Positions 3,091-51,289 of a stretch of DNA of 64,000 nt are shown here, in pieces; the stretch's first letter is position 1; every line of letters begins with the position of its first letter. The DNA comes from Deefgea piscis. GTDB taxonomy: Bacteria > Pseudomonadota > Gammaproteobacteria > Burkholderiales > Chitinibacteraceae. Made by a program: the position numbers and the translations under genes. The stretch lies in contig NZ_CP054143.1 in NCBI RefSeq assembly GCF_013284055.1, positions 2,108,001 to 2,172,000 on the forward strand, given 5' to 3'. The notes under the pieces were generated by a model, which had not been told where the DNA came from, did not search any database, and saw nothing but the letters and a program-made list of their open reading frames with translations.

Positions 3091-3139
3091 GGGTATTGAT
3101 CTCTGGCTTATGTGTTTAAATTGATTTGGGGCTATACCT
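3091..3139. repeat. 49-nt inverted-repeat element, copy 1
   Basis: GGGTAT at 3091-3096 and ATACCT at 3134-3139 bound a 49-nt unit. It starts directly after the flagellin stop codon and precedes that gene's terminator. This is one of five intergenic units of identical length in the window. Confidence 0.6.
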
Positions 3140-3233
3140 CATTGTTTTTGGTGTTGAAGTTGACGTGTCGAGTCGTGATTCAGGCGATAGTGATGATACT
3201 CATCAATAACAAGCTCGCCGTAACTTACTACAG

Positions 3234-3261
3234 AAAGGGCCGATCTGAATCGGCCCTTTTT
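3234..3261 (+). terminator. Rho-independent terminator after flagellin
   Basis: An 11-bp perfect stem (3234-3244 with 3249-3259) has a CTGA loop and a T-run ending at 3261. Confidence 0.88.
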
Positions 3262-3345
3262 AATGGCTTAAATCATCAATGGTGTTTGTAACGAGCCAAA
3301 ATGAGCGTAGACAGGTAAAATTGCCGCTTCATTTGAGGAAACATC

Positions 3346-3897
3346 ATGTCCCACGCCGAAATCATTCAAACAACACAGCATTGGCTCGAGCAAGCGGTGA
3401 TTGGCTTGAATTTGTGCCCCTTTGCTAAATCCGTCTATGTCAAAAATCAAATTCGCTATGTGGTGAGTGATGCGAAGCATTTAGATGGTTTTTTGGATGA
3501 TTTGGATCGTGAGCTGGATTTTTTGCAACAAACCCCGGCCGATGAAGTAGATACCACGTTATTGATTCATCCGAGTTTATTTCCGGATTTTGCGATTTTT
3601 AATGATGTACAAGCACTGGCCGAAGATATCGTTGTTGAGCACGAACTGGATGGGATCTTACAGGTGGCGAGTTTTCACCCCGATTTCCAGTTTGCCGATA
3701 CCGAGCCTAGCGACATCAGTAACTACACCAACCGTGCACCGTATCCGATTTTGCATTTGATTCGGGAAGATAGTATTGCGAAAGCAGTGGCTGCGTTTCC
3801 AAATCCGGATGTGATTTTTGAACGTAATATCGCCACCTTGGAAAAAATCGGTCTGGCCGGCTGGTTGACCTTGGGCTTAAAAGCCAGCGGTCAATAA
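3346..3897 (+). CDS. DUF1415 domain-containing protein
   Basis: This 183-residue protein matches the DUF1415 family over its whole length: an N-terminal WLEQAVIGLNLCPFAK segment, a central DTTLLIHPSLFPDFAIFNDV segment, and the conserved QVASFHPDFQFADTEPSDISN stretch followed by NRAPYPILHLIRE. No function is established for this family. A GAGGA ribosome binding site precedes the ATG. Its TAA overlaps the ATG of the next gene (TAATG), so the two are translationally coupled. Confidence 0.88.
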   Translation: MSHAEIIQTTQHWLEQAVIGLNLCPFAKSVYVKNQIRYVVSDAKHLDGFLDDLDRELDFLQQTPADEVDTTLLIHPSLFPDFAIFNDVQALAEDIVVEHELDGILQVASFHPDFQFADTEPSDISNYTNRAPYPILHLIREDSIAKAVAAFPNPDVIFERNIATLEKIGLAGWLTLGLKASGQ

Positions 3898-4574
3898 TGC
3901 GGATTTGGATTGTTATTTTTAGTCTTTGCTTGGCCGCCTGCGGCAGTAATCCAGCTTCGGTTTCGGGGCCGACACCCGCTGGCTTTTATCGCGTTAAATC
4001 GGGCGATACCTTGTATCGAATTGCCAAAAATAATGATCAAAGCGTTGCCGAGTTGCAGCGCTGGAATCGCTTATCCAAAAGCGATGATATTCAGGTTGGT
4101 CAGCTATTGCGATTGACGCCGCCAGCGGGGAGTACGGCAACGGCTAAGCCAAGCCCGACGCAGTCAGCTCGACCGAGTTTGCCGGTGGTTAATCCGCCAA
4201 GCAGTGTGGGTATTGAGATGGTTTGGCCGGCTCAGGGGCCATTACTGTATAGCTATGCGCCGCCACGCGTTAAAGGCATTGGCATTGGTGGCAATTTAGC
4301 TGCGCCGATTGTTGCGGTTGCCGATGGTAAAGTGCTGTATTCCGGCGATGGGATTCGTGGTTATGGTTTGTTGCTGATTATTCAGCATGCGCAAGGGTAT
4401 TTAACTGCTTACGCACATAATCAAAAACTGCTGGTGAAAGAGGGCGCGCAAGTGAAGCAGGGGCAAGCCATTGCGGCGATGGGCAAAACTGGAACAGATA
4501 GTGTGAAGTTGCATTTTGAAGTGCGCTATAAAGGCAAAACAATTAATCCGCTGAGTGCGCTGCCGAGTCGTTAA
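3897..4574 (+). CDS. NlpD-like LysM/M23 lipoprotein
   Basis: The 225-residue product begins with a lipoprotein signal ending in the lipobox LAAC (Cys15). It then has one LysM peptidoglycan-binding domain (FYRVKSGDTLYRIAKNND..GQLLRL, about 29-73) and a C-terminal M23/LytM domain (about 105-225). The first zinc ligands of active M23 enzymes are missing: the HxxxD site is replaced by GIGIGGNLAAPIVAVADG. AYAHNQKLLV and LHFEVRYKGK remain. This is the degenerate pattern of NlpD, which activates septal amidases rather than cutting peptidoglycan itself. It overlaps the upstream DUF1415 gene by one base. The usual NlpD neighbours (surE, pcm, rpoS) are absent, so it may be a paralogue. Confidence 0.85.
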   Translation: MRIWIVIFSLCLAACGSNPASVSGPTPAGFYRVKSGDTLYRIAKNNDQSVAELQRWNRLSKSDDIQVGQLLRLTPPAGSTATAKPSPTQSARPSLPVVNPPSSVGIEMVWPAQGPLLYSYAPPRVKGIGIGGNLAAPIVAVADGKVLYSGDGIRGYGLLLIIQHAQGYLTAYAHNQKLLVKEGAQVKQGQAIAAMGKTGTDSVKLHFEVRYKGKTINPLSALPSR

Positions 4575-4674
4575 TGCCCGGTTTTGGGGGCGCATAAAAC
4601 GATAGAATTTCATTTAGATTAAAGATCGCTCGTCAATTTAAGGCAGCGTGTTTCTGTGTACATTGAGGTAGGAA

Positions 4675-5163
4675 ATGCAAGTAGCAGTGATTTCGGCGGT
4701 TGGCCTAAACCGAGTGATTGGCATTAATAATCAATTGCCTTGGCGCTTGCCAGAAGATTTAAAGCATTTTAAAGCGCTGACCATGGGGAGCGTGATGCTC
4801 ATGGGGCGTAAAACATTTGAATCTTTACCCGGCTTATTGCCCGGCCGAGCGCATTGGGTGATTAGCCGTAACCCGCAATGGTCTGCCGAGGGCGCAACGG
4901 TATTTGCTGGGCTGAATGAGGCCATTGATGCGGCCAAAGCGGCCGGGCATGAGCGAGTGTTTGTGATTGGTGGCGGAGAAATTTATCAACAAAGCTTGGC
5001 GCTGGCCGATACGCTGTATTTGACCGAAGTGGCATTAAGCCCCGCAGGAGACGCATTCTTTCCTGAGTTTTCTTTGCAAGAGTGGCAAGAACAAAGTCGC
5101 GAACCGGGGGTGTCGAGCAACGGGATTGAATATGCTTTTGTGTGTTATAAAAAAGTAAAATAA
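4675..5163 (+). CDS. folA: Dihydrofolate reductase
   Basis: The 162-residue length is typical of bacterial DHFR. Visible motifs are ISAVGLNRVIGINNQLPWRL (nicotinamide/Met20 loop region), PEDLKHFK with the substrate-binding acidic residue, MGRKTFESLP for NADPH, and FVIGGGEIYQQSL. It reduces dihydrofolate to tetrahydrofolate with NADPH and is the trimethoprim target. A GGTAGGA Shine-Dalgarno stretch precedes the ATG. No thyA is next to it; it appears to be a single-gene unit ended by the terminator shared with ppa. Confidence 0.96.
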   Translation: MQVAVISAVGLNRVIGINNQLPWRLPEDLKHFKALTMGSVMLMGRKTFESLPGLLPGRAHWVISRNPQWSAEGATVFAGLNEAIDAAKAAGHERVFVIGGGEIYQQSLALADTLYLTEVALSPAGDAFFPEFSLQEWQEQSREPGVSSNGIEYAFVCYKKVK

Positions 5164-5245
5164 CTCAGGCTATCTGACATGGGTATGTGCTTCTGGGGAT
5201 TTATTTGTAATGCTTGAATCTATATACCCCTAGTGTCAGCCTGAG
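5164..5245. repeat. 49-nt inverted-repeat element, copy 2, with extended arms
   Basis: The core runs 5181-5229 from GGGTAT to ATACCC and agrees with copy 3 (16052-16100) at 35 of 49 positions. Here the dyad extends outward: CTCAGGCT at 5164-5171 and AGCCTGAG at 5238-5245 are perfect arms, and CTGACA and TGTCAG follow inside. The whole 82 bp could fold as one long stem. It lies between folA and the ppa terminator. Confidence 0.7.
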
Positions 5246-5289
5246 ATGATATTTCAACTGAAGCCAAACAATGCTCGTTGTTGCTACAA

Positions 5290-5316
5290 AAAAAGCCGAT
5301 CAATGATCGGCTTTTT
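5290..5316. terminator. Bidirectional terminator between folA and ppa
   Basis: A 12-bp stem, AAAAAGCCGATC with GATCGGCTTTTT, has an AAT loop. A-rich and T-rich arms allow termination of both converging genes. Confidence 0.88.
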
Positions 5317-5333
5317 GCTGTATTAGGGCGTGC

Positions 5334-5864
5334 TTATTTTTGTTGCGCGCGTTCAAAGCTAGTCATGATCTCAGCTTCAGCTGCGGCTTTATCGCCCCAG
5401 TCTTGTACTTTAACCCATTTGCCTTTTTCGAGATCTTTATAGTGCTCGAAATAGTGTTTTACTTGTGCCAAGAGCAATTCTGGCAAGTCAGCTAAAGTCT
5501 GGATGTGTGCATACATTGCGCAAACTTTTTCAACTGGCAAAGCAATGATTTTCGCATCAAAGCCAGATTCATCTTCCATGCCCAAAACACCGATTGCACG
5601 GCATTTGATGACCATGCCTGGGGCGAGTGGGAATGGTGTGTGCACCAAAACATCAACAGGATCGCCATCGAGCGATAAAGTGTGCGGCACAAAGCCGTAG
5701 TTCATTGGGTACGACATTGAAGTGCCAACGAAACGGTCAACGATGATCGCGCCAGATTCTTTGTCAAATTCGTATTTAACGGGTGGTGCATTGGCTGGGA
5801 TTTCGATGATAACGTTAAAGTCTTCTGGCAGGTTTTTGCCGGCTGGGATCTTGCTGATGTCCAT
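5334..5864 (-). CDS. ppa: Inorganic pyrophosphatase
   Basis: This 176-residue soluble family I pyrophosphatase hydrolyses PPi to phosphate and pulls biosynthetic reactions forward. Family markers are [42 protein letters not shown], and the metal-binding DGDPVDVLV loop (about residues 65-73), followed by [21 protein letters not shown]. It is full-length and alone on its strand, converging with folA. The intergenic stretch to the divergent Pat gene (5865-6120) should carry both promoters. Confidence 0.96.
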
Positions 5865-6120: not shown

Positions 6121-8811
6121 ATGAAACCCCACTATCTTGCCCCTTTGTTTGATCCCAGCTCAATTGCGGTGGTGGGCGCATCGGATACGGTTGGCTCAGT
6201 TGGGTATTCGGTGACGAAAAACATTCTGGATGGTGGTTATGCTGGTGCGCTGTATGCGGTGAATCTAAAGCATAAAACGGTGCAGGGTTTACCAGCGGTG
6301 AAGACGCTCAGTAAGATCACCAATCCGGTCGATTTAGCCATTCTCACGACGCCCAGTCGTACACTACTGAAGTTAATCGAAGCCTGTGCTCAACAAAATA
6401 TTCGCCACGTCATGATTATGTCGTGCGATTTTGTTGGCCAAGATAAAGCCAGCCAAAAACTGCTGAATAAAATTTTACAGCTGGCCAAGTCGCTCAATAT
6501 TCGTATTTTAGGGCCTTCGGTATTTGGTTATTGCCGCGTCTCGAGTAAATTATTGGCGGCCAATTTTAGCGGCAAAATTAAAAGTGGCAGCTTGGCGGTG
6601 GTCTCGCAATCGTCTTCAGTCACTACGGCGATTTTAGACTGGGCAGAGTTACACGACGTTGGCTTTTCCTCGGTGGTTTCTTTAGGTACCGCATCCGATA
6701 TCGACGTGGGCGATGTGCTCGACTATTTGGTTGCTGACCCAAAAACCAAATCTATTTTGCTGTATATCGAAGAATTAAAAGACGCACGCTTATTTATGTC
6801 GGCGCTACGCGCTGCGTCACGCTCTAAAGCGGTTTTGGCGTTAAAAGTCGGGCGTTATGAGCAAGAAATTAAAGTTGGACGCACACATTCCGAACGCTTA
6901 ATTAATCACAATGATGTGTTTGATGTGGCGCTGAAACGAGCTGGGGTATTGCGTTTACGCTCGATCAATCAATTGTTCACCGCAATTCGAGTGATGGACG
7001 GTTCTTACCGTACCAAAGGTCGCCGTCTGGCGATTATTACCAACGGTATTGGTGCAGGGTTGATGGCGGTCGATCGCGCCAACGATTTACATATTGAATT
7101 GCCACAATTGGCCGACGCCACTATTGCCCAGTTGCGCGGGTTATTGCCGCTACAAAGCAGCGTTCACAATCCGGTGGATGTGTTGGGTGACGCCAATGCC
7201 GAACGCTTTAAACTTGCTACTGAGTTGGTGATTAAAGATCCAAATGTCGATGGCGTGTTGGTGGTGTTTACCCCGCAAGTTGGCACTGACGATATGGCGA
7301 CGGCCGAGGCGATGATTGCGCTGAAAAAGACCACCGATAAGCCTTTGCTATTGGCGTGGGTGGGCGGCAAGAAAATCGATGCTAGCCGAAAACTACTCGG
7401 CAAATCGCAAATGGCGTTTTTTAATGCGCCAGAAAGCGCGGTTGAAGTGTTTTATTCGCTAGCTGCATGGCAATACAATCAGCAATTGTTGCTACAAACG
7501 CCAAGTCCATTGGGCGAAATGGAGGCGCCAGATCTAGAAACTGCGCAAATGATTATTAGCACGGTATTGGCCAGTGGCCGTGAAGTGCTCGATGAAGTGG
7601 AATCAAAAGCGATTTTACGCGCGTTTCATATCCCCGTTACGCTGACCATTCGGGCGCAATCGGTTGACGAAGCTGTCTCGGCGGCAATGGGTTTGGGGTT
7701 GCCCGTGGCGATGAAAATCGACGCCAAAGGCATATTGCATAAAACCGATATTGATGGCGTTGTGCTTAACCTCAATAGCTTGGTTCAGGTGGCCACTGAG
7801 GCCAGTAAAATGCTGTCGCGCGCGCATGAACGACTCGGTGCCGAGAATGTGCGTGGCTTGGTGATTCAACCGATGCATGGCAAAAAATCCGGTCGCGAGT
7901 TAATGGTTGGCGTTGGACGTGATCGTGCGTTTGGCCCGGTGATTACCTTTGGTTATGGTGGGGTTACTGTTGAGGTATTTAATGACATCGCAGTGTCTTT
8001 GCCGCCGCTCAATGAATACCTCGCTGAAAATCTAATTAGTCGCACGCGAGTCAAAAAAATGCTCGCACCATTTCGCAATTTACCCGGCGTGGATATGGCG
8101 GCGGTTAAGGCTGTGTTGATGCGGGTTTCTGAGATGGTGTGTGAGTTTCCACAAATTCAGCAGTTGGACATTAATCCGCTGATTGCCGATGAAAATGGTG
8201 TCATTGCCGTGGATGCGCGGATTGTTTTGGCGCCATTGGCCGAGCATGCGCGTCGCTATAGCCATATGGCGATTCACCCTTATCCGGCGCATTTAGCGCA
8301 AGTGACCCAATTGAAAAATGGCCTGCCGCTAGTATTGCGCCCGATTCGTCCTGAAGATGCCGATTTGATTGCGTTGTTTGTGAGTAAGTTGTCGGATGAA
8401 AGTCGCTACAACCGCTTTATGAGCACTTTAAAATCATTACCTCAAGCGATGCTCGCGCGTTTTACTCAGCTCGATTACACCCGAGAAATGGCGATTGTGG
8501 CGACGGTTGAAACCGCGATCGGCACTGAGATCATTGGCGTCGCTCGTTTTAATGCCAATCCTGATCGAGATAGTTGCGAGTTTGCGGTGGTGATTAGTGA
8601 TCAGTGGCAAGGGATGGGCTTGGGTGGGCGCTTGATGAATGCCTTGTTTATCGCTGCGCGTGATATGGGCTTGTCGGTGATTGAAGGGGAGGTGTTAAGT
8701 AGTAATAAAACGATGCTCACCTTTATGAAACACATGGGTTTTAGTATTACGCGCCATGCTGAGGATGATAGCTTGAAGTGGGTGGTGAAGCGCTTACAAG
8801 ACCCAATTTAA
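6121..8811 (+). CDS. Pat-type protein lysine acetyltransferase (acyl-CoA synthetase-like plus GNAT)
   Basis: This product of about 896 residues has the PatZ/YfiQ layout: an N-terminal CoA-binding Rossmann domain (LFDPSSIAVVGASDTVGSVG), a succinyl-CoA-ligase-like core (VVSQSSSVTTAILDWA, RLAIITNGIGAGLMAVD), an ATP-grasp domain (LPVAMKIDAKGILHKTDIDGVVLN, GVGRDRAFGPVITFGYGG, QQLDINPLIA), and a C-terminal GNAT domain from about residue 730 (LRPIRPEDADLIALF, QGMGLGGRLMNAL). Such enzymes acetylate lysines of metabolic enzymes such as acetyl-CoA synthetase. An upstream TTG at 6106 is possible, but the GAGG at 6108-6111 is well placed only for the ATG at 6121. It is a single gene divergent from ppa. 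Confidence 0.88.
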   Translation: MKPHYLAPLFDPSSIAVVGASDTVGSVGYSVTKNILDGGYAGALYAVNLKHKTVQGLPAVKTLSKITNPVDLAILTTPSRTLLKLIEACAQQNIRHVMIMSCDFVGQDKASQKLLNKILQLAKSLNIRILGPSVFGYCRVSSKLLAANFSGKIKSGSLAVVSQSSSVTTAILDWAELHDVGFSSVVSLGTASDIDVGDVLDYLVADPKTKSILLYIEELKDARLFMSALRAASRSKAVLALKVGRYEQEIKVGRTHSERLINHNDVFDVALKRAGVLRLRSINQLFTAIRVMDGSYRTKGRRLAIITNGIGAGLMAVDRANDLHIELPQLADATIAQLRGLLPLQSSVHNPVDVLGDANAERFKLATELVIKDPNVDGVLVVFTPQVGTDDMATAEAMIALKKTTDKPLLLAWVGGKKIDASRKLLGKSQMAFFNAPESAVEVFYSLAAWQYNQQLLLQTPSPLGEMEAPDLETAQMIISTVLASGREVLDEVESKAILRAFHIPVTLTIRAQSVDEAVSAAMGLGLPVAMKIDAKGILHKTDIDGVVLNLNSLVQVATEASKMLSRAHERLGAENVRGLVIQPMHGKKSGRELMVGVGRDRAFGPVITFGYGGVTVEVFNDIAVSLPPLNEYLAENLISRTRVKKMLAPFRNLPGVDMAAVKAVLMRVSEMVCEFPQIQQLDINPLIADENGVIAVDARIVLAPLAEHARRYSHMAIHPYPAHLAQVTQLKNGLPLVLRPIRPEDADLIALFVSKLSDESRYNRFMSTLKSLPQAMLARFTQLDYTREMAIVATVETAIGTEIIGVARFNANPDRDSCEFAVVISDQWQGMGLGGRLMNALFIAARDMGLSVIEGEVLSSNKTMLTFMKHMGFSITRHAEDDSLKWVVKRLQDPI

Positions 8812-8875: not shown

Positions 8876-8896
8876 GTCATTTTCTTGACATTTGCT

Positions 8897-9581: not shown

Positions 9582-9995
9582 ATGCTAGGCCGTCTCGACG
9601 ATTATTTTCGCAATCAAGAAGCCGCACTGAAATTACGCAGTTACCGCCAAGAAATTTTGGGTTCAAATATCGCCAATGCCGATACGCCCAATTACAAAGC
9701 GCGGGATATTAACTTTAAAGCGGCTTTTGAGGCGGCTCGAACCTCGTCAAATACGAATACTGCGCCCTTGAAAACCAGCGATAGTCGTCATTTGCAACCG
9801 AGCAAAACAGTCGATTTATTTGCCCCAGAGCGGCTGTATCGCAATGAGCAGCAGCCGTCGATTGATGGCAATACCGTTGATATGAATACCGAAATGAAAG
9901 AATTTACCGATAACGCGATTCGCTATCAGGCAGCGGTGACGTTTCTGACGCGCCGGATTGAGTCGATGAAAACCGCGTTAACTGGTGGCCAATAA
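9582..9995 (+). CDS. flgB: Flagellar basal-body rod protein FlgB
   Basis: This 137-residue proximal rod subunit begins MLGRLDDYFRNQEAALKLRS and has the rod signature GSNIANADTPNYKARDINF (about residues 25-45). The C-terminal helix includes MNTEMKEFTDNAIRYQAAV. A GGAG 7 bases upstream fixes the ATG at 9582; the open frame itself extends further upstream. It is the first gene of flgBCDEFGHI and follows directly on the sigma-54 promoter. Confidence 0.95.
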   Translation: MLGRLDDYFRNQEAALKLRSYRQEILGSNIANADTPNYKARDINFKAAFEAARTSSNTNTAPLKTSDSRHLQPSKTVDLFAPERLYRNEQQPSIDGNTVDMNTEMKEFTDNAIRYQAAVTFLTRRIESMKTALTGGQ

Positions 9996-14930: not shown

Positions 14931-16019
14931 ATGCGCCACTTATTGTTGGTTTTACTGTGTTGTACGTCGATGTTGAGTATGGCTGAGCCTTTAAAACAGC
15001 TCGCCAGCTTTGCCGGCGTACGAAATAATCAATTGGTGGGGTATGGCCTTGTGGTTGGCTTGGACGGTACCGGGGATCAAACCACCCAAACGCCGTTTAC
15101 AGTGCAATCGATCTTAAACATGCTGACCAATCTTGGCGTGCAAGTGCCTACGGGGGGTAATTTACAGCTTAAAAACGTGGCTACGGTGATGGTTACGGCG
15201 ACATTGCCACCCTTTGCGCGCCCGGGCCAGCCTTTGGATGTGGTGGTTTCTTCGATTGGTAATGCCAAAAGTTTGCGAGGTGGTACTTTATTAATGGCGC
15301 CGCTGAAAGGTGCTGACGGGCAAATTTATGCCATGGCACAAGGCAATTTGATTGTCGCAGGCGCTGGTGCTGCAGCGGCCGGGACCAGCGTGCAAGTGAA
15401 TCAACTCGCAACAGGTTTGGTGCCGGCAGGGGCAACGGTGGAGCGTGCCGTTCCAACTTCTTTGGGGAATGGCGAGTTTGTCCAGCTAGAGTTATTGCAA
15501 ACGGACTTTTCAACGGCAAGCCGAGTAGTGAATGCCATTAATGGCCAAATTGGCGCGGTGGCCACTGCGCTGGATGGGCGAGTCATTCAGGTGCGCGCAC
15601 CGCAAGATCCAAATCAGCGCGTGGCTTTTTTGGCGAGGCTAGAAACGCTCGATGTCACGCCAGCGCCAAGCAATCCCAAAGTGATTATTAATGCTCGAAC
15701 CGGCTCGATTGTGATGAATCAAGCGGTTACCGTGGATGCCTGTGCCATTGCGCATGGCAATTTAACGGTGACGATTTTGGCAGAAAATGCCGTGGTGCAA
15801 CCCAATGCGCTCGCCGGTGGGGCGGCCAAACGGGTTGAAAATGCCGAGATTCAAATTGAAACCGGTAAAGGCCCGATGGTGCGAGTGCCAAAGTCGACTT
15901 CGCTCAATCAAGTGGTTAGGGCACTGAATGCCGTTGGGGCAACGCCACAAGATTTGTTGGCTATTTTGCAAGCAATGAAAGCGGCGGGCGCATTAAAGGC
16001 GACCATTGAAGTGATTTAA
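14931..16019 (+). CDS. flgI: Flagellar P-ring protein FlgI
   Basis: FlgI assembles the periplasmic ring in the peptidoglycan layer. The 362-residue protein has a cleavable signal peptide (to about residue 18, ending SMAEP), then QLASFAGVRNNQLVGYGLVV and GLDGTGDQTTQTPFTVQSI, and a C-terminal domain ending in ALKATIEVI. AAAGGAAAG precedes the ATG. This gene appears to end the first flg block; a 380-bp gap and a second sigma-54 promoter separate it from flgJ. Confidence 0.97.
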   Translation: MRHLLLVLLCCTSMLSMAEPLKQLASFAGVRNNQLVGYGLVVGLDGTGDQTTQTPFTVQSILNMLTNLGVQVPTGGNLQLKNVATVMVTATLPPFARPGQPLDVVVSSIGNAKSLRGGTLLMAPLKGADGQIYAMAQGNLIVAGAGAAAAGTSVQVNQLATGLVPAGATVERAVPTSLGNGEFVQLELLQTDFSTASRVVNAINGQIGAVATALDGRVIQVRAPQDPNQRVAFLARLETLDVTPAPSNPKVIINARTGSIVMNQAVTVDACAIAHGNLTVTILAENAVVQPNALAGGAAKRVENAEIQIETGKGPMVRVPKSTSLNQVVRALNAVGATPQDLLAILQAMKAAGALKATIEVI

Positions 16020-16051: not shown

Positions 16052-16100
16052 GGGTATATGCTGTTCAATCTTTTTGTATAAAGCTTGCATGTATATACCC
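16052..16100. repeat. 49-nt inverted-repeat element, copy 3
   Basis: The arms are GGGTATATGC and GCATGTATATACCC, ending at 16100. The unit is 49 nt and agrees with the copy at 5181-5229 at 35 of 49 positions, including an identical TATATACCC end and an internal GCTTG. Confidence 0.7.
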
Positions 16101-16360: not shown

Positions 16361-16402
16361 TATGGATTAACAACTAAGCTATTGATGTGTTCGGAGCCGA
16401 CT

Positions 16403-17344
16403 GTGAATTCAGCCAGTAATGCCATTCAAAACACCCTCGCGATTGATCCTAAAGCCATGAATCAATTGCGGGTGACCAATCGCGCCGACACGGCGGCGGG
16501 GGCCAAAGCGATTGCCCAGCAATTTGAGGCGCTGTTGATGCAGCAAATGTTGTCATCGATGCGTACTGCGGCACCCACCGATAGCATGAATGACAGCAGC
16601 AGCGTTGAGATGTTTCGTGGCATGCACGATCAGCAGCTCACGCAAATGTGGGCTAATCAGGGCGGCTTGGGTTTGGCCGATGTGATTATGCGTCAGATTC
16701 AAGTGCAGCAAAATCCTGCTTTATTACAACAACCCTTGCGCCATGGCGTCAATCCATTGATTGATCAGGGTTTGGATTATCGTAATGTGAAAACGGTTCC
16801 GAATGCAGCGGTCGCGGCAAAAACTGCCGCTATACCGACTGATCTTGCCGATGGCGCAAGGTCTAGTGCTGCTGACTTTATCCATAAAATCAGCGCCGCG
16901 GCGCAAAGTACTGCCAGTGCCTTGGGCGTGGCGCCACATTTATTGCTAGCGCATGCCGCGCTAGAAACGGGTTGGGGTAAAAAAACGCTGAACGACGCTG
17001 CCGGTAATGATTCATTTAATTTATTTGGCATTAAGGCGGGAAGTAGCTGGAAGGGAAAAACGGTTGATGTATTGACGACTGAGTTTGTCGATGGCACGGC
17101 ACAAAAGAGGGTTGAAAAGTTTCGGGCTTACGATTCATATCAAGATGCATTTGCTGACTATGCCAGTGTAATGAAGCGGCGCTTTGGCGATGCTTTGGAG
17201 CAAGGTAGCGATGCGCTTGGCTTTGGTAAAGCTTTGGCCAAAGAGGGTTATGCCACTGATCCACAATATGCACAAAAATTCGCGCGTGTTGCTGACAGCG
17301 TGGTGGCGCGCTTAAGTGCTCAAAATTCAAGATTGGGCGCTTAA
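16403..17344 (+). CDS. flgJ: Flagellar rod assembly protein/muramidase FlgJ
   Basis: FlgJ is a rod cap with a peptidoglycan hydrolase domain that opens the cell wall for the rod. The N-terminal rod-binding half contains AKAIAQQFEALLMQQMLSSM and MFRGMHDQQLTQMWANQGGL. The C-terminal half is a glucosaminidase-type domain (HLLLAHAALETGWGKKTLND, FNLFGIKAGSSWKG). The GTG at 16403 follows a GGAG by six bases and gives 313 residues, the usual FlgJ length; an ATG at 16385 lacks a ribosome binding site. It has its own sigma-54 promoter. Confidence 0.95.
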   Translation: MNSASNAIQNTLAIDPKAMNQLRVTNRADTAAGAKAIAQQFEALLMQQMLSSMRTAAPTDSMNDSSSVEMFRGMHDQQLTQMWANQGGLGLADVIMRQIQVQQNPALLQQPLRHGVNPLIDQGLDYRNVKTVPNAAVAAKTAAIPTDLADGARSSAADFIHKISAAAQSTASALGVAPHLLLAHAALETGWGKKTLNDAAGNDSFNLFGIKAGSSWKGKTVDVLTTEFVDGTAQKRVEKFRAYDSYQDAFADYASVMKRRFGDALEQGSDALGFGKALAKEGYATDPQYAQKFARVADSVVARLSAQNSRLGA

Positions 17345-31124: not shown

Positions 31125-31865
31125 ATGAGATTGAAAGATAAAGTAGCGATCATTACGGGCTCTGCGAGCGGTATCGGCGAAGCCACGGCGATTAAATTCG
31201 CCGCCGAAGGTGCAAAAGTCGTGGTGTGTGACGTTAATCCAGCTGGCGTAGCTGCTGTGGTGGCGGCATTAACTGCCGGTGGCGCTGATGCAGTGGGTTA
31301 TGTGGTTGATGTCACGAAGACTGATACCATTGCTGCGATGGTGGCCGCGGTGAAGGATAAATATCAGCGAATTGACGTCTTGGTAAATAATGCGGGCATC
31401 GTTATGGATGCGCAGTTATTTAAAATGACTGAAGATCAGTTTGATCGCGTGATTGATATTAATTTAAAAGGTGTTTACAACTGCACTAAAGCGGTTGTGG
31501 ATACTATGATTGAGCAAAAATCTGGTGTGATTCTAAACGCATCCTCAGTGGTGGGTATTTACGGCAATTTTGGCCAAACCAATTATGCCGCATCCAAGTT
31601 TGGCGTGATTGGCTTTGTAAAAACATGGGCGAAAGAACTCGGTAAAAAAGGCATTCGTGCCAATGCCATTTGTCCTGGATTTGTAGCAACGCCAATTTTG
31701 AATGATATGCCAGAAAAAGTCATTCAAGCGATGGAAGAAAAAGTCCCAATGCGCCGTTTGGCACAGCCCGCTGAAATTGCGAACGTTTACGCATTTTTAG
31801 CATCGGATGAAGCCAGCTATATCAATGGCGCGGTGATTGAAGTTACCGGTGGCCTGACCTTGTAA
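31125..31865 (+). CDS. SDR family oxidoreductase, FabG/PhaB-like
   Basis: The 246-residue short-chain dehydrogenase has the NAD(P) motif [18 protein letters not shown] in [15 protein letters not shown], and the catalytic set Asn, Ser (NASSVVGI), Tyr and Lys (NYAASKFG). Family relatives are 3-oxoacyl-ACP reductase FabG and acetoacetyl-CoA reductase. The genomic context is not a fab cluster, so the substrate is open. GTAGGGG precedes the ATG and a strong terminator follows. Confidence 0.85.
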
Positions 31866-31916: not shown

Positions 31917-31965
31917 GGGTATATGTTTGCAAGCGATTGCTGGTTTGAGATTGAAGTAAATACCC
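31917..31965. repeat. 49-nt inverted-repeat element, copy 4
   Basis: GGGTAT at 31917-31922 and ATACCC at 31960-31965 bound exactly 49 nt, immediately after the SDR terminator and before the end of the L,D-transpeptidase gene. Confidence 0.65.
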
Positions 31966-31977: not shown

Positions 31978-33252
31978 TTAATTGAGCGCATTACCTTCCC
32001 AAACGATTTTCCAGCCTGCGGCATCTTGTTGCCAATACAAGCGTTTTTTCATTTGATTATTCAAATTGTTACTGCGGTAATTTTGATTAAAGGTGGCTAC
32101 CATTTGGCTGGCTTGAGGGCCCGCAGCAAAAATGGATACATCATTTAACTGAACTTTACTCCAAGTTTTTCCAGCGTTGACGGCCGCTTTTTGCTCACGC
32201 CAAGTGCTGATGTCTTGTCCTTCGCCGCTGCGAAAATCGGGCGAATAAAAATTCAAATATTGCTGGGTATTGAGCGTTTCCCAGCTGCTTTTCCATTGCT
32301 CCAGCAGGGCCAGTCCGGCATTGTGTTGTTGTTGCCATTGCTCGGCATTAACCCATTTGATAGCGGGTACCGAAATGACTGGCGTATTGCCCGGTTGCAA
32401 ATATTGGGCGACATCGAGCATTTCTTCATTAGTGAGTACGACGCAGCCATTGGAGGCTTGTGGTGCTCGGGCATACGTGGCCGCTGGGCTGCCATGTAGC
32501 CAGATGCCGTGTCCGGTGCGGCTTTGACTGCGATCGAGTTCATTCGGATAAGAAATCGGCCAAGCCCCAACACCATATAGATCCGCCAGTGAACCATAGG
32601 TTTTATCGAGTTGCTCGCGAGGTAGGTGGCTGGTAACAAAGTAAACGCCCAGTGGTGAGCGTTGGTCACCTTCTATTTTTTTATCAACACCCAATAAACC
32701 GACGGTAACGTAATGATCTCTGACTCGTTTGGGTTGTCCATTGTCATTGGCAAACACATACAGTCGAGAGGTGGCGGCATCGATTAAGATGGCGAATTTT
32801 TGCTGCGGCGCAAAAGCCACAATATTGGCCGGTAAACGATCAGCATAAATCTTATCGTTGCGGTGCGCGATTCGCACTAAGGCTTCTTTGCGTAAATCAT
32901 CGAGCACATTGCTCGGTGCGCTGGCGACGCCGCCGCCGATGGTCGATAGCGGCATCACGCGCATGGCGTAGAGGTCGGCACGTAATAATTGGGCGAGACG
33001 ATAGTTGGGTTGCTCGGCAATCAGCGCGTCGACGGTGGCGCGAGCGTCGGCCATATTGCCACTGCGAATCGCATCCAATGCGGCGATGATTCGCTCTTCA
33101 TGACTGCCGGTATGCGCCACGCCTTTCGCTTCGCTGCTCAGCTCAAACGAAGCATCACTAAATTCAAAAAAACGTGGGGTAGCGGCGGGTGCCAAGCAAA
33201 GCAGCGCAGCCAAGCAAAGTAGACGCTTGGTCCAAGGGGATAAACGTAGCAT
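31978..33252 (-). CDS. L,D-transpeptidase (YkuD) with C-terminal NTF2/Cds6-like domain
   Basis: This 424-residue exported protein has a signal peptide (to about residue 24), a short helical repeat region (50-100), and a YkuD catalytic domain (about 152-297). The active-site segment is HGSPAATYARAPQASNGCVV, with His253 and Cys270. A C-terminal domain (about 310-424) has the NTF2/Cds6-like pattern of a tryptophan-rich helix, a YSPDF motif and alternating strands. Such enzymes make 3-3 crosslinks in peptidoglycan or attach proteins to it. The stop codon of the TPR gene lies 8 bp further upstream, so both form one operon. Confidence 0.87.
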   Translation of the reverse strand: MLRLSPWTKRLLCLAALLCLAPAATPRFFEFSDASFELSSEAKGVAHTGSHEERIIAALDAIRSGNMADARATVDALIAEQPNYRLAQLLRADLYAMRVMPLSTIGGGVASAPSNVLDDLRKEALVRIAHRNDKIYADRLPANIVAFAPQQKFAILIDAATSRLYVFANDNGQPKRVRDHYVTVGLLGVDKKIEGDQRSPLGVYFVTSHLPREQLDKTYGSLADLYGVGAWPISYPNELDRSQSRTGHGIWLHGSPAATYARAPQASNGCVVLTNEEMLDVAQYLQPGNTPVISVPAIKWVNAEQWQQQHNAGLALLEQWKSSWETLNTQQYLNFYSPDFRSGEGQDISTWREQKAAVNAGKTWSKVQLNDVSIFAAGPQASQMVATFNQNYRSNNLNNQMKKRLYWQQDAAGWKIVWEGNALN

Positions 33253-34376: not shown

Positions 34377-34724
34377 TTTGATTCCATGCGGTGAGGAACT
34401 GCGATAAATTGGCGCAATTCTACCAAATATTTAGTGATTTGGCCTTGATGAACTGAGCTGTAACGACGTTACAGGTGTTATTTCACAATGCTGCGAAATT
34501 TGAGCGGTCATTGTCATTGTGTGTCGACGTTTTCAAGCTGCGAACTGTAGCTTGTTGAGCGAAGTACCTCATCGGTGATGCAGCAAGGTACTGATGTTGC
34601 GATTTATTGGGTGATTGTCATCATCATGTTTTGTATTATGGGTATTGCCTCATTACGGTTGTAAGTTATTCTTTAAGGGTATTGCTCTAAGCGTCATATG
34701 CAATATGAGCTAGGTGGCAATACC
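34377..34724. other. Intergenic region between the TPR and nuclease genes
   Basis: About 350 bp hold no gene. The left end should carry the TPR gene promoter. The right end holds a 49-nt inverted-repeat element and an extra GGGTATTGCCTCATT half-element at 34640. Confidence 0.7.
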
Positions 34725-34725
34725 T
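34677..34725. repeat. 49-nt inverted-repeat element, copy 5
   Basis: GGGTATTGC at the left and GCAATACCT at the right form nine-base arms with one mismatch, again 49 nt in total. A third, direct half-copy (GGGTATTGCCTCATT) begins at 34640, 37 bp upstream, and ATACCTCATT is shared with copy 1. Confidence 0.65.
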
Positions 34726-35309
34726 CATTCACTGCGCTTGGCTTTACGCCAATCCCATGGCGGCATGGCTTGAGGGTCTTGCCATAAACCGAGTCGTGCC
34801 GATTTTGCTGCGTGTTGCGCATTGGCGTAGTCAGCAAAGTCGGCTGTTGGTTGCGCTTTTTTGGCGTAGGTCGTGTAGTGCCAAGCAAAACCTGCATTCA
34901 CTTGTGCCAAATTAATATCTTGTTGATTTTTACTAATTCTGGCGACGCCACGTCCATAGCGATCAACATCATCAATTTGTGCGCTGACATTTTGTTTGAA
35001 TACCAGATCAGACAAGTGGATTTTGGCGGCTTGGCCAAAAGGCATTGCCTTTTCGGGCGCATCAATATAGGCCAAGCGCAGTTTGTATTGCTGCTTATTG
35101 GCATCCAGTAGCGTGATGGTATCGCCATCGGCAACGGCAACCACTTGGCCTTCGATACTGCTGCCTTTGGCGAGCTGACCAGGCGAAACCGTGCTTTCAT
35201 TCCACCATGTGACAGCGGCAATGCTCAGAATGACAATGGCTGAAATGCGTGCGGGCCATGAGCGAGCAGTCAATAAATTGATTAAGGCACGTTGATTTTT
35301 TTGTTTCAT
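34725..35309 (-). CDS. Membrane-anchored staphylococcal-type nuclease (thermonuclease family)
   Basis: The 194-residue product has an N-terminal membrane anchor (about residues 17-36), then an SNase fold: VVAVADGDTITLLD with the calcium-site aspartates, LRLAYIDAPEKAMPFGQAAK, VDRYGRGVARI, and the end WYTTYAK-like WHYTTYAKK. The family cuts DNA or RNA outside the cytoplasm. Its ATG overlaps the TGA of hpnC (ATGA), giving translational coupling with an unrelated lipid gene. Confidence 0.88.
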   Translation of the reverse strand: MKQKNQRALINLLTARSWPARISAIVILSIAAVTWWNESTVSPGQLAKGSSIEGQVVAVADGDTITLLDANKQQYKLRLAYIDAPEKAMPFGQAAKIHLSDLVFKQNVSAQIDDVDRYGRGVARISKNQQDINLAQVNAGFAWHYTTYAKKAQPTADFADYANAQHAAKSARLGLWQDPQAMPPWDWRKAKRSE

Positions 35310-36160
35310 TTGGCGGTTTTTTTCGTGATTCCTGTTTTCAGTGCTTGCCATAAAATGGCGGGCCAATCGCCTCGGCTTAAGGTCGGCCTGGCATTAAACA
35401 CATCGTATTGTGCCGTTTGTATTTTACTTAAGACCCGATCTGCGGCGAGAACGATGGTGCGAATTTCTAAGCCGACTCGACCTGGCAATTGTACGCCCAG
35501 CGGCGATCCGGCGCGCAGCATGCGTCGAGTTCGATCACATTGAAAGTGCATCAATTGTTTGAAGGCCGGAGTTGCAATGCCATTGGCTAGATCTTGCTCA
35601 GTCACGGCAAAGCGAAGTAAGTCATCTTGCGGTAAATAAACGCGATCTTTTTGCCAATCAATCGCCACATCTTGCCAAAAATTGACCAGTTGCAGTGCCG
35701 AACAAATGCCATCTGACAACGCCAATTGGCGTGCATCAGTTTGATCAAATATATGTAGCAAAATGCGCCCAACAGGATTGGCGGAGCGGCGGCAGTAATC
35801 AATGACTTCACCAAAGTTTTGGTATCGATTTTTAACCACATCTTGGCGAAAGGCTGAAAACAAGTCTTCAAACAGTTGTAATGGAATTTGGTAGCGTTGC
35901 ACGACTGGAGCGAGCGCTTGAAATCGCGCAGTGAGCGCCATCTCGCCACGTTCAATTCGTTGCAGTTCTGCGCTGCATTCATCAAGCGCTGCAAGGCGCT
36001 CGCTGGCACTGGCATGGCCTTCATCGGCGAGATCATCAGCATATCGAGCAACGTGATAAACCACCGCAACCGCAGGGCGGTATTGTTTTGGCAGCAAAAA
36101 AGAACCCACAGGGAAATTCTCATAATGCTCAACAGTGTGCTGCGATGTGATGCCCTTCAT
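35306..36160 (-). CDS. hpnC: Squalene synthase HpnC (hopanoid type)
   Basis: The 284-residue member of the squalene/phytoene synthase family has the HpnC-type start EHYENFPVGSFLLPKQYRP and two aspartate-rich sites: ARYADDLADEG (about residues 38-48) and NFWQDVAIDW (about 160-169). HpnC, HpnD and HpnE together convert farnesyl diphosphate to squalene; no hpnD, hpnE or shc is in the window. A phytoene synthase role is possible but the N-terminus favours HpnC. AAGGAAA precedes the ATG. It overlaps the nuclease gene. Confidence 0.82.
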   Translation of the reverse strand: MKGITSQHTVEHYENFPVGSFLLPKQYRPAVAVVYHVARYADDLADEGHASASERLAALDECSAELQRIERGEMALTARFQALAPVVQRYQIPLQLFEDLFSAFRQDVVKNRYQNFGEVIDYCRRSANPVGRILLHIFDQTDARQLALSDGICSALQLVNFWQDVAIDWQKDRVYLPQDDLLRFAVTEQDLANGIATPAFKQLMHFQCDRTRRMLRAGSPLGVQLPGRVGLEIRTIVLAADRVLSKIQTAQYDVFNARPTLSRGDWPAILWQALKTGITKKTAK

Positions 36161-38656: not shown

Positions 38657-38888
38657 GCTGTGCGCCCAAAATGGATTTGCGCGATTATGCAGGGGAGTGG
38701 GCAGGGATTCAAGGTGAAAAAAACGCCATTCAACCGTTTTTGGTGAATGGCGCTAAAATACCACTGGAGATACACGAAGCATCAGCTTGCGAAACCCATT
38801 ATGTTTTTTTTCGTGAAGACGTGCGTTGATGTCGATCAAAGTCTGGCGGACTTTGATTGTTAATTTGGCAATAGCGTATGGGTGAGGT

Positions 38889-38983
38889 GGCGAGCCCGAC
38901 CCCCGGCACTAGCATCAAAAGCTGTGGCTGCTTCCTTCCGGACCTGACCAAGTTCACCTTCTAGCTATGCGGGGAGGCCCGCC
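38889..38983 (-). ncRNA. ffs: Signal recognition particle RNA (4.5S)
   Basis: Read on the minus strand, the segment contains the universal SRP core GGTCAGGTCCGGAAGGAAGC and AGCC, with the GGAA tetraloop. The ends (GGCGGGCC... and ...GGGCTCGCC) pair to close a 95-nt hairpin. This is the short bacterial 4.5S form that binds Ffh. It lies in a 366-bp gap between yciB and the asparaginase gene; exact ends are estimated from pairing. Confidence 0.95.
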
Positions 38984-39022: not shown

Positions 39023-40000
39023 CTATACCATATGTGTTGCAGTTTGCCATGCCTTACGTAATGAATCATGGTCAGTTTTTTGGGCTAGTGCCGTGTAGAG
39101 CCATGTGGTTGCCGCTTCTACGCTTAAGCGATCGGCAGCTAATGCATTGATTTCTTGTAAAAAACTACCTGCTGCGTAATGCCCTTGGCGCACTTGACCT
39201 CGAATGCACTGACTACAATTTATAATTAGGCTTCCTGCTTGAACTGCATTTTTTAATGCACTTTTTAATAAAAAATGGTCGGGTATGTTGCCACTACCAT
39301 AGGTTTCTATGGCAATACCAGCAAATACCTGCGAATTTATACTCGATGCTAACCAAGTCTCACAGCCTGGGTAAAGTTTAACACTGAGAATGTTTAGGCT
39401 TGGATTGAGCGGGTAAAACTGGTAGTTGCCAGCCTGAATAGTTGGCCATTCCCCTTGCCAGTTTGGCGCTGCAAATGCGGCATCGGCGTCAGCGTCGAGT
39501 TTTTTTACGGCATGCCCAGGTAGTAACAAACCACTAAATGCCACCATCACCGCGCGGCGTTGACTTTGCACGCCCTCAAGTGCCAGTTGAAAATTCGCCG
39601 GCGCATCGCTACCCAACTCCAGCCACGGGCGCTGAGAACCGGTGATGACGACGGGTTTATCGATTTGACTCAGTTGCCAGTGGAGTGCGGCAGCGGTCCA
39701 AGCTAAGGTGTCGGTGCCGTGCAATATAATGAATCCATCAAATTGATGATAGGCAGCGTCAATATCTTGGGCGATTCTTAGCCAATCTAAGGGTTGCATA
39801 CTTGATGAGTCGAGTGCCTCAGGGTACTCGCGTAAAGTGAGTGAAATGCCGAGGTTATGCTGTTGTGCGAGTAAGTCGGTAATTACTGGACTTAAAATCC
39901 CTGCTTTAGGCGCTAAACCTAAAGGGCTTGGCGCGCAGCCTATGGTACCGCCGGTATAGAGGCAAAGAATGCGTTGAGGTGCTTTGTACTGCGCTGGCAT
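39023..40000 (-). CDS. L-asparaginase, type I-like
   Basis: The 325-residue enzyme has both active-site signatures: LCLYTGGTIGCAP with the nucleophilic threonine (about residue 16) and FIILHGTDTLAWTAAAL (about residues 90-106). VVITGSQRPWLELGSDAPAN and a C-terminal domain follow. There is no signal peptide, so it is cytosolic and resembles AnsA rather than periplasmic AnsB. It converts asparagine to aspartate and ammonia. It is divergent from smpB, with under 40 bp between starts. Confidence 0.92.
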   Translation of the reverse strand: MPAQYKAPQRILCLYTGGTIGCAPSPLGLAPKAGILSPVITDLLAQQHNLGISLTLREYPEALDSSSMQPLDWLRIAQDIDAAYHQFDGFIILHGTDTLAWTAAALHWQLSQIDKPVVITGSQRPWLELGSDAPANFQLALEGVQSQRRAVMVAFSGLLLPGHAVKKLDADADAAFAAPNWQGEWPTIQAGNYQFYPLNPSLNILSVKLYPGCETWLASSINSQVFAGIAIETYGSGNIPDHFLLKSALKNAVQAGSLIINCSQCIRGQVRQGHYAAGSFLQEINALAADRLSVEAATTWLYTALAQKTDHDSLRKAWQTATHMV

Positions 40001-48323: not shown

Positions 48324-48405
48324 TTGCGCTCGATTACTAGCGCATCGACATTAGATTGACATTAGATTAATCGCGCAGCAGTTTGTGCTCATCAGGGACT
48401 CTGGT

Positions 48406-49629: not shown

Positions 49630-49682
49630 TGCGCCATCGAGCATTGCTTGATACGCTCAATTTAAATTAAAAAGGATTTAGT

Positions 49683-50090: not shown

Positions 50091-50134
50091 TCCGTGTCGG
50101 CGACGTGTCGACATTTGAAATCATTGGAGTTGCT

Positions 50135-50737
50135 ATGTTCAAATTTGTTCTTCCCGTCGCCTTGGTTTTAGGTTTAGGTGCTTGTGATCAAGGCGCGCAA
50201 TTGGCGCAGCAAGCCGCTTCATCCGTAGGCGCTATCGTTGGTCAAGAAATTAAAAATCAAGCCAATGCGGTGATTGACCAAACCGTGGGTGAAGCCAGTG
50301 AAGCATTGGCGCCGTTTGGTATCAATGCCAGTCAAGTAAGTGGCGCGATTAAAGATAAAACCAGTAGTTTAATTAGCCAAGCCATGCCATCGAATGTGAA
50401 TTGGACCGGTTTAAATTCATTAGCCGGTAAAACGCCCAATGAAATCGGCTTATTCACCGCCGTAAGTCCGATTGATGGCCAGTTAAATACCTTGCTCGGT
50501 GAGCAAGCGACAGCGATTAAAGCCGCGTTAGCCGGTGCCGTGCTCAAGCAAGACAAGGTATTGTATTTACTCAGTGATCAGCCAGATCAAGCCACTTGGT
50601 TGCTGATTGACACCGCCAATCGCAAGCTAGCCGCAGGGCAAATTGTGAATGGTCAATTGAAAAACCTTCCTTCTGCAGGCGAGGCGATTCAATTGCCAAG
50701 TGAAATTAGTGCGCTACAAAGTAAATTGCTGAAATAA
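50135..50737 (+). CDS. Hypothetical lipoprotein
   Basis: The 200-residue product begins MFKFVLPVALVLGLGACDQG, a lipoprotein signal with lipobox LGAC. An Ala/Gln-rich helical region follows (LAQQAASSVGAIVGQEIKNQ), then a segment ending VLYLLSDQPDQATWLLIDTA. I do not recognise the family. GGAG precedes the ATG at 50135; the upstream frame start at 50105 would destroy the signal peptide. It lies 44 bp after the FKBP gene. Confidence 0.72.
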   Translation: MFKFVLPVALVLGLGACDQGAQLAQQAASSVGAIVGQEIKNQANAVIDQTVGEASEALAPFGINASQVSGAIKDKTSSLISQAMPSNVNWTGLNSLAGKTPNEIGLFTAVSPIDGQLNTLLGEQATAIKAALAGAVLKQDKVLYLLSDQPDQATWLLIDTANRKLAAGQIVNGQLKNLPSAGEAIQLPSEISALQSKLLK

Positions 50738-50760
50738 ACAGCGATCCATAATCGCCTAAA

Positions 50761-50788
50761 AAACTGCCGAGCTAAGCCTCGGCAGTTT
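50761..50788. terminator. Terminator overlapping the end of ykgJ
   Basis: An 11-bp stem AAACTGCCGAG/CTCGGCAGTTT has a 6-base loop and T-rich right flank. Its right arm lies inside the last codons of the converging YkgJ-family gene. Confidence 0.85.
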
Positions 50789-51227
50789 GTTTTTGTGCTG
50801 TTTGCAAAGTGGGTAATGGCATCAATGGCTTTAATTGATGCGCGGCTCTGGCGGTTTGGCAGGCTGGGTTCGGTTGACCGGCTTCGTCATACACATAAAA
50901 TTCACGGCAAGTGCTAGAGCGCTGGCGGTAAATACTGCAATAGCTGCTTTTGCCAACTTCACCTTTAAAACTGATGCACGTCACTTGTTGCTGATTGGTG
51001 CCTTTCATCGCGGCGTACACCGGCGAGATCATAATGATTTTATCGCTAGGAACGGCAAACGCACTGTCAGTAAAACTTCCGGCAACTTCTCCGGCGTAAA
51101 ACGAAACTCGAAAATGATTGCAACACGCACCACAGCTGGCGCAAACATGGGTATTGTCATCGGGCATATCGACAAAAACTCGGCCGTCTTCTTGCGGTAT
51201 TTTAATTTGTTGGTCTTGGCTGTTCAT
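50772..51227 (-). CDS. YkgJ family cysteine cluster protein
   Basis: The 151-residue protein has the CxxCxxCC-type cluster motif in HVCASCGACCNHFRVSFYAG (about residues 27-46), CISFKGEVGKSSYCSIYRQR and STCREFYVYD, the layout of YkgJ/YkgJ-like zinc or iron-sulfur proteins. The biochemical role is unknown. The start codon region is preceded by a degenerate copy of the 49-nt element. No partner gene is visible. Confidence 0.88.
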   Translation of the reverse strand: MNSQDQQIKIPQEDGRVFVDMPDDNTHVCASCGACCNHFRVSFYAGEVAGSFTDSAFAVPSDKIIMISPVYAAMKGTNQQQVTCISFKGEVGKSSYCSIYRQRSSTCREFYVYDEAGQPNPACQTARAAHQLKPLMPLPTLQTAQKQTAEA

Positions 51228-51240
51228 GGTGGCTTTATAA

Positions 51241-51289
51241 GGGTATGACCATCCAGCGCATAATGGCTGTGGTTTTGCTGATTATACTG
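51241..51289. repeat. Degenerate copy of the 49-nt inverted-repeat element
   Basis: GGGTAT begins at 51241 and ATACTG ends at 51289, again 49 nt; the right end deviates from ATACCY at two bases. It is the weakest of the six and could be chance, but it too is intergenic. Confidence 0.35.

Follow-up and report, generated by a model that had tools for sequence, protein, structure and literature searches.

Short sequence motifs held at a fixed distance, and palindromic sites recognized by chromosome-organizing proteins, offer the closest precedents for the element described here. Passages of Tong, Schliekelman and Mrazek (2017; PMC5217627), who scanned 569 genomes for spaced motif pairs, describe several unexplained palindromic pairs near gene 3′ ends, among them CCTAC(N)19TAGGT in Desulfatibacillum alkenivorans and GAATCCAT(N)23ATGGATTC in Bradyrhizobium japonicum. 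The portions consulted of two further papers (PMC3116907, PMC4726725) give the sites of SlmA and Noc as palindromes of 12 and 14 bp, present in ~24–52 and 70 copies, respectively, and under-represented near the replication terminus (ter). According to the same portions, SlmA sites lie mainly in coding regions, SlmA is apparently no regulator of gene expression, and for SlmA, Noc and MatP it is the position of the site, rather than gene expression, that is thought to matter. Here, we describe a 49-bp element, GGGTAT-N37-ATACCC, recognized in a 64,000-nucleotide stretch of the Deefgea piscis genome (contig NZ_CP054143.1, positions 2,108,001–2,172,000; hereafter the window), the 3.43-Mb genome comprising one chromosome-sized contig and two small contigs, C2 (42,722 bp) and C3 (15,571 bp). 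With about as much confidence as doubt, we read this 49-bp unit as a protein recognition site rather than a mobile element, and most likely as the chromosome-wide docking site of a putative clade-specific nucleoid protein.

The spacing between the two hexamers is nearly invariant. The initial annotation had taken the constant length as the mark of a defined unit, and the comparison with neighboring spacings bears this out: in a chromosome sample of 864 kb (40 stretches of 20 kb around the chromosome, plus the window), exact convergent pairs number 39 at N37, far above the 4 at N38, and none of the 18 remaining spacings in the range N28–N47 has any. With at most one mismatch, the counts are 103 at N37, 13 at N38, and 0–4 elsewhere. 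In the same sample, the divergent arrangement of the hexamers has no exact pair at any of the 20 spacings and the direct arrangement has one overall, at N31. Side peaks (direct pairs, 11 at N33 with one mismatch, other spacings having 0–5; with two mismatches, 69 convergent pairs at N35 and 72 direct pairs at N33) are read as inner letters of the same 49-nt site. Across the whole genome, exact GGGTAT-N37-ATACCC occurs 158 times and its backward-read control not at all, and a wider form (N30–45, ATACCY) matches 248 times forward and 243 times reverse (control, 1 and 0); among the first 100 of those 248 places, 89 have N37, nine N38, and one each N36 and N31. The 116 sites of the sample (49 or 50 nt, at most one mismatch) correspond to an estimated ~453 per chromosome, or one per 7–8 kb. 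When all spaced palindromes with 5- or 6-letter arms and spacers of 12–69 were scanned, the site pair ranked first, followed mostly by its own shifts; GGTAT-N37-ATACC was observed 105 times in the 864 kb against 1.1 expected, and in two subsamples, with similar interiors excluded, it again came top at 14 and 15 per 100 kb.

Structurally, the outer half-sites GGGTAT face each other over 37 bp, and the copies have only the motif in common. A motif built from the 89 49-nt copies among the first 100 listed places, with percentages taken from the 43 intergenic copies of the sample, reveals a weak, symmetric inner pattern (T or G at position 8, C at 9, T at 12, G or C at 13, T or C at 14, A at 15 in 78%, G at 16, C at 18, T at 21 in 83%, then A or T), which is sharper in the 43 intergenic copies than in the 89 listed ones. 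Its inner half-site consensus, TSYAGSC around positions 12–18, lies about one helical turn inside each outer half-site, leaves an A/T-rich center, and, read from the center outward, resembles the outer hexamer (G..TA). The base immediately outside GGGTAT is C in just 2% of the 86 flanks of the intergenic copies. Two Chitinibacter genomes (G036 and G011) have a similar inner pattern with shifted preferences. Going by this weak consensus, the site may consist of two inverted pairs whose centers are 31 bp apart, and the simplest reading of such a geometry is that a symmetric dimer of dimers, or a tetramer, would grip four major-groove faces, binding both halves at once and probably bending the A/T-rich center.

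Taxonomically, the element belongs to a single clade. All 15 genomes of three genera, which we firmly infer to be Deefgea (g1, seven genomes), Chitinibacter (g6, six) and Chitinilyticum (g11, two), carry 100–291 exact copies each, and all 28 other genomes of the family carry 0–2. Further afield, 22 of 24 genomes from 24 other families have none, one has a single copy (control 1), and one, the order-level relative G051, has three (control 0), of which the one match inspected shows no inner motif by eye. Among 273 other genomes of the class, 23 have matches (one has two, the rest one) versus 19 with a match to the backward control, which is the level of chance. A scan of a contig database with the 18-letter form of the motif returned 83 stretches, 80 of them in Deefgea, Chitinibacter or Chitinilyticum and the remaining three single ones in Saprospiraceae, Lachnospiraceae and Emergencia; in viral contigs, three stretches have the 18-letter form, two of them having one identical copy in common.

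Two observations outside the carrier genera are recorded here in their own right. The non-carrier genus g8 (G013, G022, G030, G063–G066) has eight exact matches in nine genomes (control 0); the match in G013 (L044) has the inner motif and resembles a genuine site. In one unrelated genome of the class, the single match, at G271:C121:9960–10008, forms an almost perfect palindrome of 49 nt that shares the ends of the element. We also considered whether sister genera use a dialect of the site with other hexamers, and samples of 100 kb (seven genera) or 40 kb (an eighth) yielded no spaced palindrome comparable to it: the top scores in genera g7 and g3 were runs of G, C or A, and AAATCC-N34 (5 observed) in G013, along with a few others seen 3 to 5 times before similar interiors were excluded, was taken for repeats.

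Evolutionarily, the sites mostly stay where they are. Of 47 sites in the stretches compared with G001, a relative at 91% identity, 37 had a usable orthologous region and 10 were dropped; the site survives with zero or one mismatch in 33 of the 37 regions, with two mismatches in three regions and with three in one, whereas random G001 regions come within one mismatch in 87 of 4000 cases. The length of the site, taken from the best match, is unchanged in all 37 regions, none of which presents a clean empty site. No intergenic site changed length (0/17), as compared with 459 of 2502 site-free intergenic windows, a contrast that is slightly flattered by a best-match search favoring the old length on ties and by overlap among the control windows; of the site-free windows under 85% identity, 253 of 669 (38%) changed net length. 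Where a site is kept, its interior averages 91% identity in genes (19 sites) and 72% in intergenic DNA (14 sites). Column by column, 13 sites compared with G001 show 95% identity in their pentamers (GGTAT and ATACC), 71% in their interiors and 76% in their flanks. Hypervariability of the interiors was considered and rejected, since the flanks have diverged about equally, as ordinary drift between conserved ends would have it. In the more distant G003 (77% identity overall; six sites), the corresponding values are 92% for site pentamers, 74% for interiors and 69% for flanks, and lone pentamers there have 74% (17 of 76 intact).

A coding example illustrates how such a site may originate. In a 552-bp gene, neither half-site has more than one mismatch in any of the seven Deefgea genomes, and both are exact in the Chitinibacter genome G011; five orthologues from genera g2, g4 and g7 match ATACCC at 1–3 of 6 letters and the left half-site at 5 or 6 of 6, and two g8 orthologues gave no alignment across the site. 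Judging from these alignments, a few point changes in the carrier lineage seem to have created the site in this gene. Within the regions compared, the alignments establish, at the level of sequence, that sites are held in place by purifying selection.

The placement of the sites was assessed with two sets of heuristic gene calls, between which coding and intergenic labels differ. The initial annotation had presented the copies as intergenic; an intergenic enrichment is real but not exclusive, with 60 or 53 of the 103 49-nt sites (first and second set) lying in genes. Under the second set, densities per kb are 0.97 in convergent gaps, 0.43 in tandem gaps, 0.11 in divergent gaps and 0.088 in genes, and 20 of 31 tandem-gap sites are nearer the upstream stop codon. 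The second set labels three sites as divergent (window position 34677, L067 7969 and L090 11268), the window one touching the 3′ end of an open reading frame (ORF), and of the three so labeled in the first set, two look like tandem gaps on closer reading. Neighboring sites keep a minimum distance: within stretches, none of 75 gaps is under 500 bp as compared with 6.5 expected, the smallest being 595 bp, and over the first 1.45 Mb (99 of the first 100 listed places, a 43-nt one having been dropped) two of 98 gaps are under 2 kb as compared with 12.5 expected. Counts per 20 kb over the 40 stretches vary less than Poisson counts would (variance/mean 0.61). Even long-range spacing was also considered and is unsupported, as the coefficient of variation of the gaps is 1.17 and long gaps occur; eight stretches picked from two long gaps, 160 kb in all with 4 kb counted twice, held 10 sites, and one of the eight had none.

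By GC skew, the replication origin (ori) lies near 1.24 Mb, in agreement with a ParB gene at 1.308 Mb, and ter lies near 2.87 Mb; sites with at most one mismatch occur in 40 of 40 stretches drawn evenly around the chromosome. The two small contigs (58 kb together; C2 comprising L249–L251, C3 being L252) hold no site, as compared with 7.8 expected. We label them plasmid-like on the basis of their size and of a reading of the C3 ORFs, which look relaxase-like, ParA-like, replication-initiator-like and exporter-like. Two local observations were made along the way. At L063, nearly identical sites at 8349–8397 and 9678–9726 stand 1,329 bp apart, both in called convergent gaps, and the second has the same ends and a very different interior in G001, which suggests local duplication or conversion. 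A stretch of ~63 bp at L065 15797–15859 recurs, by DNA search, at many places in the genus and family and possibly represents tRNA genes.

Within the window, GGGTAT-N30..45-ATACCY gives 10 counted matches, against a mean of 0.07 and a maximum of 2 in 100 shuffles of the window. These amount to seven places, three palindromic ones being counted on both strands: five of 49 nt, one of 50 nt and one of 56 nt. The sites discussed below, together with those carrying other mismatches, are as follows (window coordinates; the sites themselves are unstranded).

1593–1641: one-mismatch site (GTACCC right end) within a called gene; letter-identical in G001, and degraded at both ends where G003 aligns.
3091–3139: site with an ATACCT right end (one mismatch), directly after the stop codon of a flagellin gene (2269–3090, + strand); a 49-nt site with the same ends in G001.
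5181–5229: exact site in the convergent gap between genes for dihydrofolate reductase (4675–5163, + strand) and inorganic pyrophosphatase (5334–5864, − strand); an exact 49-nt site with a changed interior in G001.
16052–16100: exact site between flgI (14931–16019, + strand) and a gene with rod-binding and glucosaminidase domains (16382–17344, + strand); an exact 49-nt site in G001.
27072–27120: one-mismatch site (GAGTAT left end) within a 137-amino-acid ORF; both ends kept in G001.
31917–31965: exact site in the convergent gap between genes for a short-chain dehydrogenase (31125–31865, + strand) and a YkuD L,D-transpeptidase domain protein (31978–33252, − strand); a one-mismatch site in G001.
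34677–34725: site with an ATACCT right end (one mismatch) beside an ORF at 34725–35366 (− strand); a 49-nt site in G001.
39281–39330: 50-nt (N38) variant with one mismatch (ATACCT right end) within a 325-amino-acid ORF; kept in G001.
51241–51289: GGGTAT...ATACTG, with two mismatches by sequence comparison; not a site.

The five places that the initial annotation had listed with GGGTAT and ATACCC or ATACCT ends (3091, 5181, 16052, 31917 and 34677) are all present at 49 nt each, and the copies at 5181 and 16052 do agree at 35 of 49 positions. Its sixth place, at 51241–51289, has the GGGTAT left end as described, but with two mismatches in the right end it is not counted as a site here; G001 has the identical GGGTAT and the identical ATACTG at this place. 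That only intergenic copies were listed is probably due to the coding copies of the window having a mismatch or 50 nt. Context is sensitive to the gene calls at two places: the site at 16052 is coding in the first set, within a 101-amino-acid minus-strand ORF, and tandem intergenic in later calls, and that at 34677 is tandem in the first set and divergent in the second. The ATACCT mismatch at 34677–34725 fits the fact that the outermost base of the site is also the final base of the neighboring ORF's stop codon, and other one-mismatch sites adjoining stop codons may share this overlap. Rfam covariance models at the gathering score returned only the SRP RNA in the window and no match for the 49-nt sites; that gene, for a bacterial small SRP RNA, occupies 38886–38983 on the minus strand.

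Functionally, we posit that the putative protein bound to these sites would organize or mark the chromosome as a whole, rather than controlling single genes. That the sites serve the chromosome as a whole is the most likely meaning of ~450 of them lying in genes and at gene 3′ ends, off the promoter gaps and under purifying selection. Several points weigh against such a docking site. No binding protein was found among the families searched (MatP, MukB, ParB_N, Y1 transposase and H-NS), the nucleoid role of the putative protein is one that we infer from distribution only, and the four-contact model takes a weak inner consensus as its basis. Unlike the published matS, SlmA and Noc sites, those described here show no clear pattern relative to ori or ter: within 350 kb of ori there are 3.62 sites per 20 kb versus 2.47 (p 0.09), and within 350 kb of ter there are 20 sites in 9 stretches, or 2.22 per 20 kb versus 2.84 elsewhere (p 0.36), values that rule out exclusion from ter and allow a mild depletion. 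The plasmid-like contigs may be recent arrivals and hence site-free. Lone GGTAT and ATACC pentamers are 93% identical in G001, barely below the pentamers of sites, presumably as many of them lie in conserved genes, and the contrast between site and lone pentamers is clear in the more distant G003 only; just seven of 12 site pentamers are fully intact there, so sites do decay.

The candidate proteins were screened as follows. MatP (PF06303) is absent from 23 of 23 genomes searched, including eight carriers (seven of Deefgea, one of Chitinibacter and none of Chitinilyticum), the E. coli control being positive. MukB gave weak matches in 14 of 43 genomes (best 24.3 bits; 10 over the cut-off of 23), four of them carriers and 10 non-carriers; these were not counted as MukB, nor do they tell the two groups apart. 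H-NS, being in all 43 genomes, is equally uninformative about carriers, and ParB_N (Noc superfamily), searched as a sign of an extra ParB, occurs in 37 of 37 genomes with no excess in carriers.

The principal observation left unpredicted by a plain protein site, and thus a further point against the docking-site reading, is that the two arms of a copy match each other more closely than their common motif would account for. Across 158 copies (43 intergenic copies of the sample, 65 of G036 and 50 of the 65 listed for G011, the G036 and G011 copies being taken without a coding/intergenic split), inner-position agreement between the arms of a copy is 0.429; when partners are shuffled it is 0.351, and none of 2000 shuffles reaches the observed value. 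The agreement is clearest at positions 7–12, adjoining the outer hexamers; taken set by set, 2, 0 and 1 of 2000 shuffles reach the observed value in the intergenic sample, G036 and G011, respectively. The 60 coding copies of the sample show no such excess (0.277 observed, 0.286 expected). Arm matching fits a hairpin role of the intergenic copies, or mutation that perfects palindromes.

An RNA hairpin, which the initial annotation had listed among its suggestions, would have the palindrome fold in mRNA at transcript 3′ ends, as a terminator, stabilizer or processing signal; only the intergenic copies, whose arms match beyond shuffled partners, may have such a role. The preference of intergenic copies for gene 3′ ends speaks for it, and a measured double strand would suit the fixed length. 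Nonetheless, we judge it unlikely as an account of the element: about half of the sites are inside genes, single inner positions pair in just 30–70% of intergenic copies, the 86 flanks of 43 intergenic sites show, on average, no T run after the site, and separate terminator-like hairpins were seen by eye near three of the window sites (3091, 5181 and 31917), the one at 31917 standing just before the site with a T run of its own.

Natural transformation offers another route to a dispersed, clade-specific motif. In this scenario, the site would be an uptake signal, a distant functional counterpart of the DNA uptake sequences (DUS) of Neisseriaceae, spread and kept by biased uptake and recombination, and it would account for sites in genes and at intergenic 3′ ends, their short-range repulsion, their restriction to a clade, their shared orthologous places and the lack of any in the two plasmid-like contigs. 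The consulted part of PMC3630211 likewise places Neisseriaceae DUS in genes and as inverted pairs at terminators, but it describes 10–12-mers and thousands of DUS or uptake signal sequences (USS) per genome, whereas the present element is an exactly spaced 49-bp pair in ~450 copies. We therefore rate an uptake signal as quite improbable.

Oligomeric regulators typically bind paired, palindromic half-sites at a fixed spacing, and the geometry that led the initial annotation to suggest a regulator with two sites at a fixed distance is indeed present. A gene regulator with many operators is, however, very doubtful, because control of promoters is hard to reconcile with a density of 0.11 per kb in divergent gaps as opposed to the roughly ninefold denser convergent gaps, because the window site labeled divergent touches an ORF 3′ end and other divergent labels turn out partly tandem on closer reading, and because a regulon of ~450 coding and 3′ sites is implausible. 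Divergent sites were also considered as pointers to an autoregulated gene, and the proteins flanking them, inspected by eye with no domain search, included no DNA-binding candidate. Finally, the miniature mobile element of the initial annotation, or a REP-type repeat, would explain a dispersed, palindromic, partly extragenic element in a clade where Y1 transposase (PF01797) matches occur in six of 10 carriers searched (G001, G002, G004, G005, G006 and G020), but is scarcely credible for copies that have nothing in common beyond the motif, show no clean empty site in 37 orthologous regions and lie in many genes, one of them in conserved coding sequence traced through seven species of the genus, with no Y1 match in the other four carriers (G000, G003, G011 and G016).

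Returning to the docking site of a putative nucleoid protein, we propose, more tentatively and with the balance tipped toward doubt, that it belongs to a new chromosome-marking system: a lineage-specific, probably tetrameric binder would recognize a long, bipartite, symmetric site that is found over the whole chromosome with a minimum spacing and is missing from plasmid-like contigs. In this scenario, point mutations at hundreds of places, within genes and between them, would have created the sites in the ancestor shared by Deefgea, Chitinibacter and Chitinilyticum. Bacteria are known to have few sequence-specific marks that span the chromosome, and the literature surveyed contains none of this length, number or rigidity of spacing. 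The coding copies, of which at least one apparently originated within a gene of this lineage, would represent selection on DNA overlaid on the protein code. The sharp split between three carrier genera and the 28 other genomes of the family means that the binder can be searched for by comparing gene content, or by pull-down with a 49-bp duplex.

How, then, does the element compare with described systems? REP and BIME elements are palindromic dispersed repeats near gene ends that are extragenic and tied to a Y1 transposase (RAYT); the present sites are likewise palindromic, dispersed and near gene ends, and differ in their coding copies and in the four of 10 carriers without a Y1 match. The DUS of Neisseriaceae, as characterized in the consulted part of PMC3630211, are also core-genome motifs, lying within genes and, in inverted pairs, at terminators. 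Their short length of 10–12 letters and their thousands of copies set them apart from the symmetric, fixed-distance pair seen here; by analogy, the uptake reading and the site would have many features of distribution in common, but not the form of the motif. Sites of SlmA and Noc, so far as the excerpts cited at the outset go, are palindromic and spread across coding and non-coding DNA, as are those described here, for which the bound protein is only putative; the differences lie in a 49-bp bipartite form, ~450 copies and no significant depletion near ter. The likeness to matS is that of sequence-specific chromosomal marks proposed to act by position (PMC3116907, in part), whereas MatP binds within the Ter domain only and the present sites lie all around the chromosome, with no MatP match in 23 genomes. 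Apart from a depletion near ter, of which a mild degree would fit the counts, none of the defining features of SlmA, Noc or MatP sites that were looked for here was found.

A literature search, with most subscription journals outside its reach, found no description of a GGGTAT-N37-ATACCC motif, and the main text of Tong et al. (PMC5217627; supplementary tables outside scope), to the extent consulted, names no motif from Deefgea, Chitinibacter or Chitinilyticum. The resemblance to the pairs described in that text is nonetheless the closest: in both cases short inverted motifs stand at a fixed distance around a variable spacer, often in convergent gaps or at gene 3′ ends, with their function unexplained, and the present element likewise shows two motifs, a fixed distance and dissimilar spacers at a frequency above chance. 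It departs from the two examples quoted above in its longer spacer of 37, in its ~450 copies as compared with 57 and 52, in having about half of its copies in genes, and in being kept across three genera. We thus file the 49-bp pair with the spaced palindromic pairs of Tong et al., as a deeply conserved variant that is longer than they are and present in more copies.

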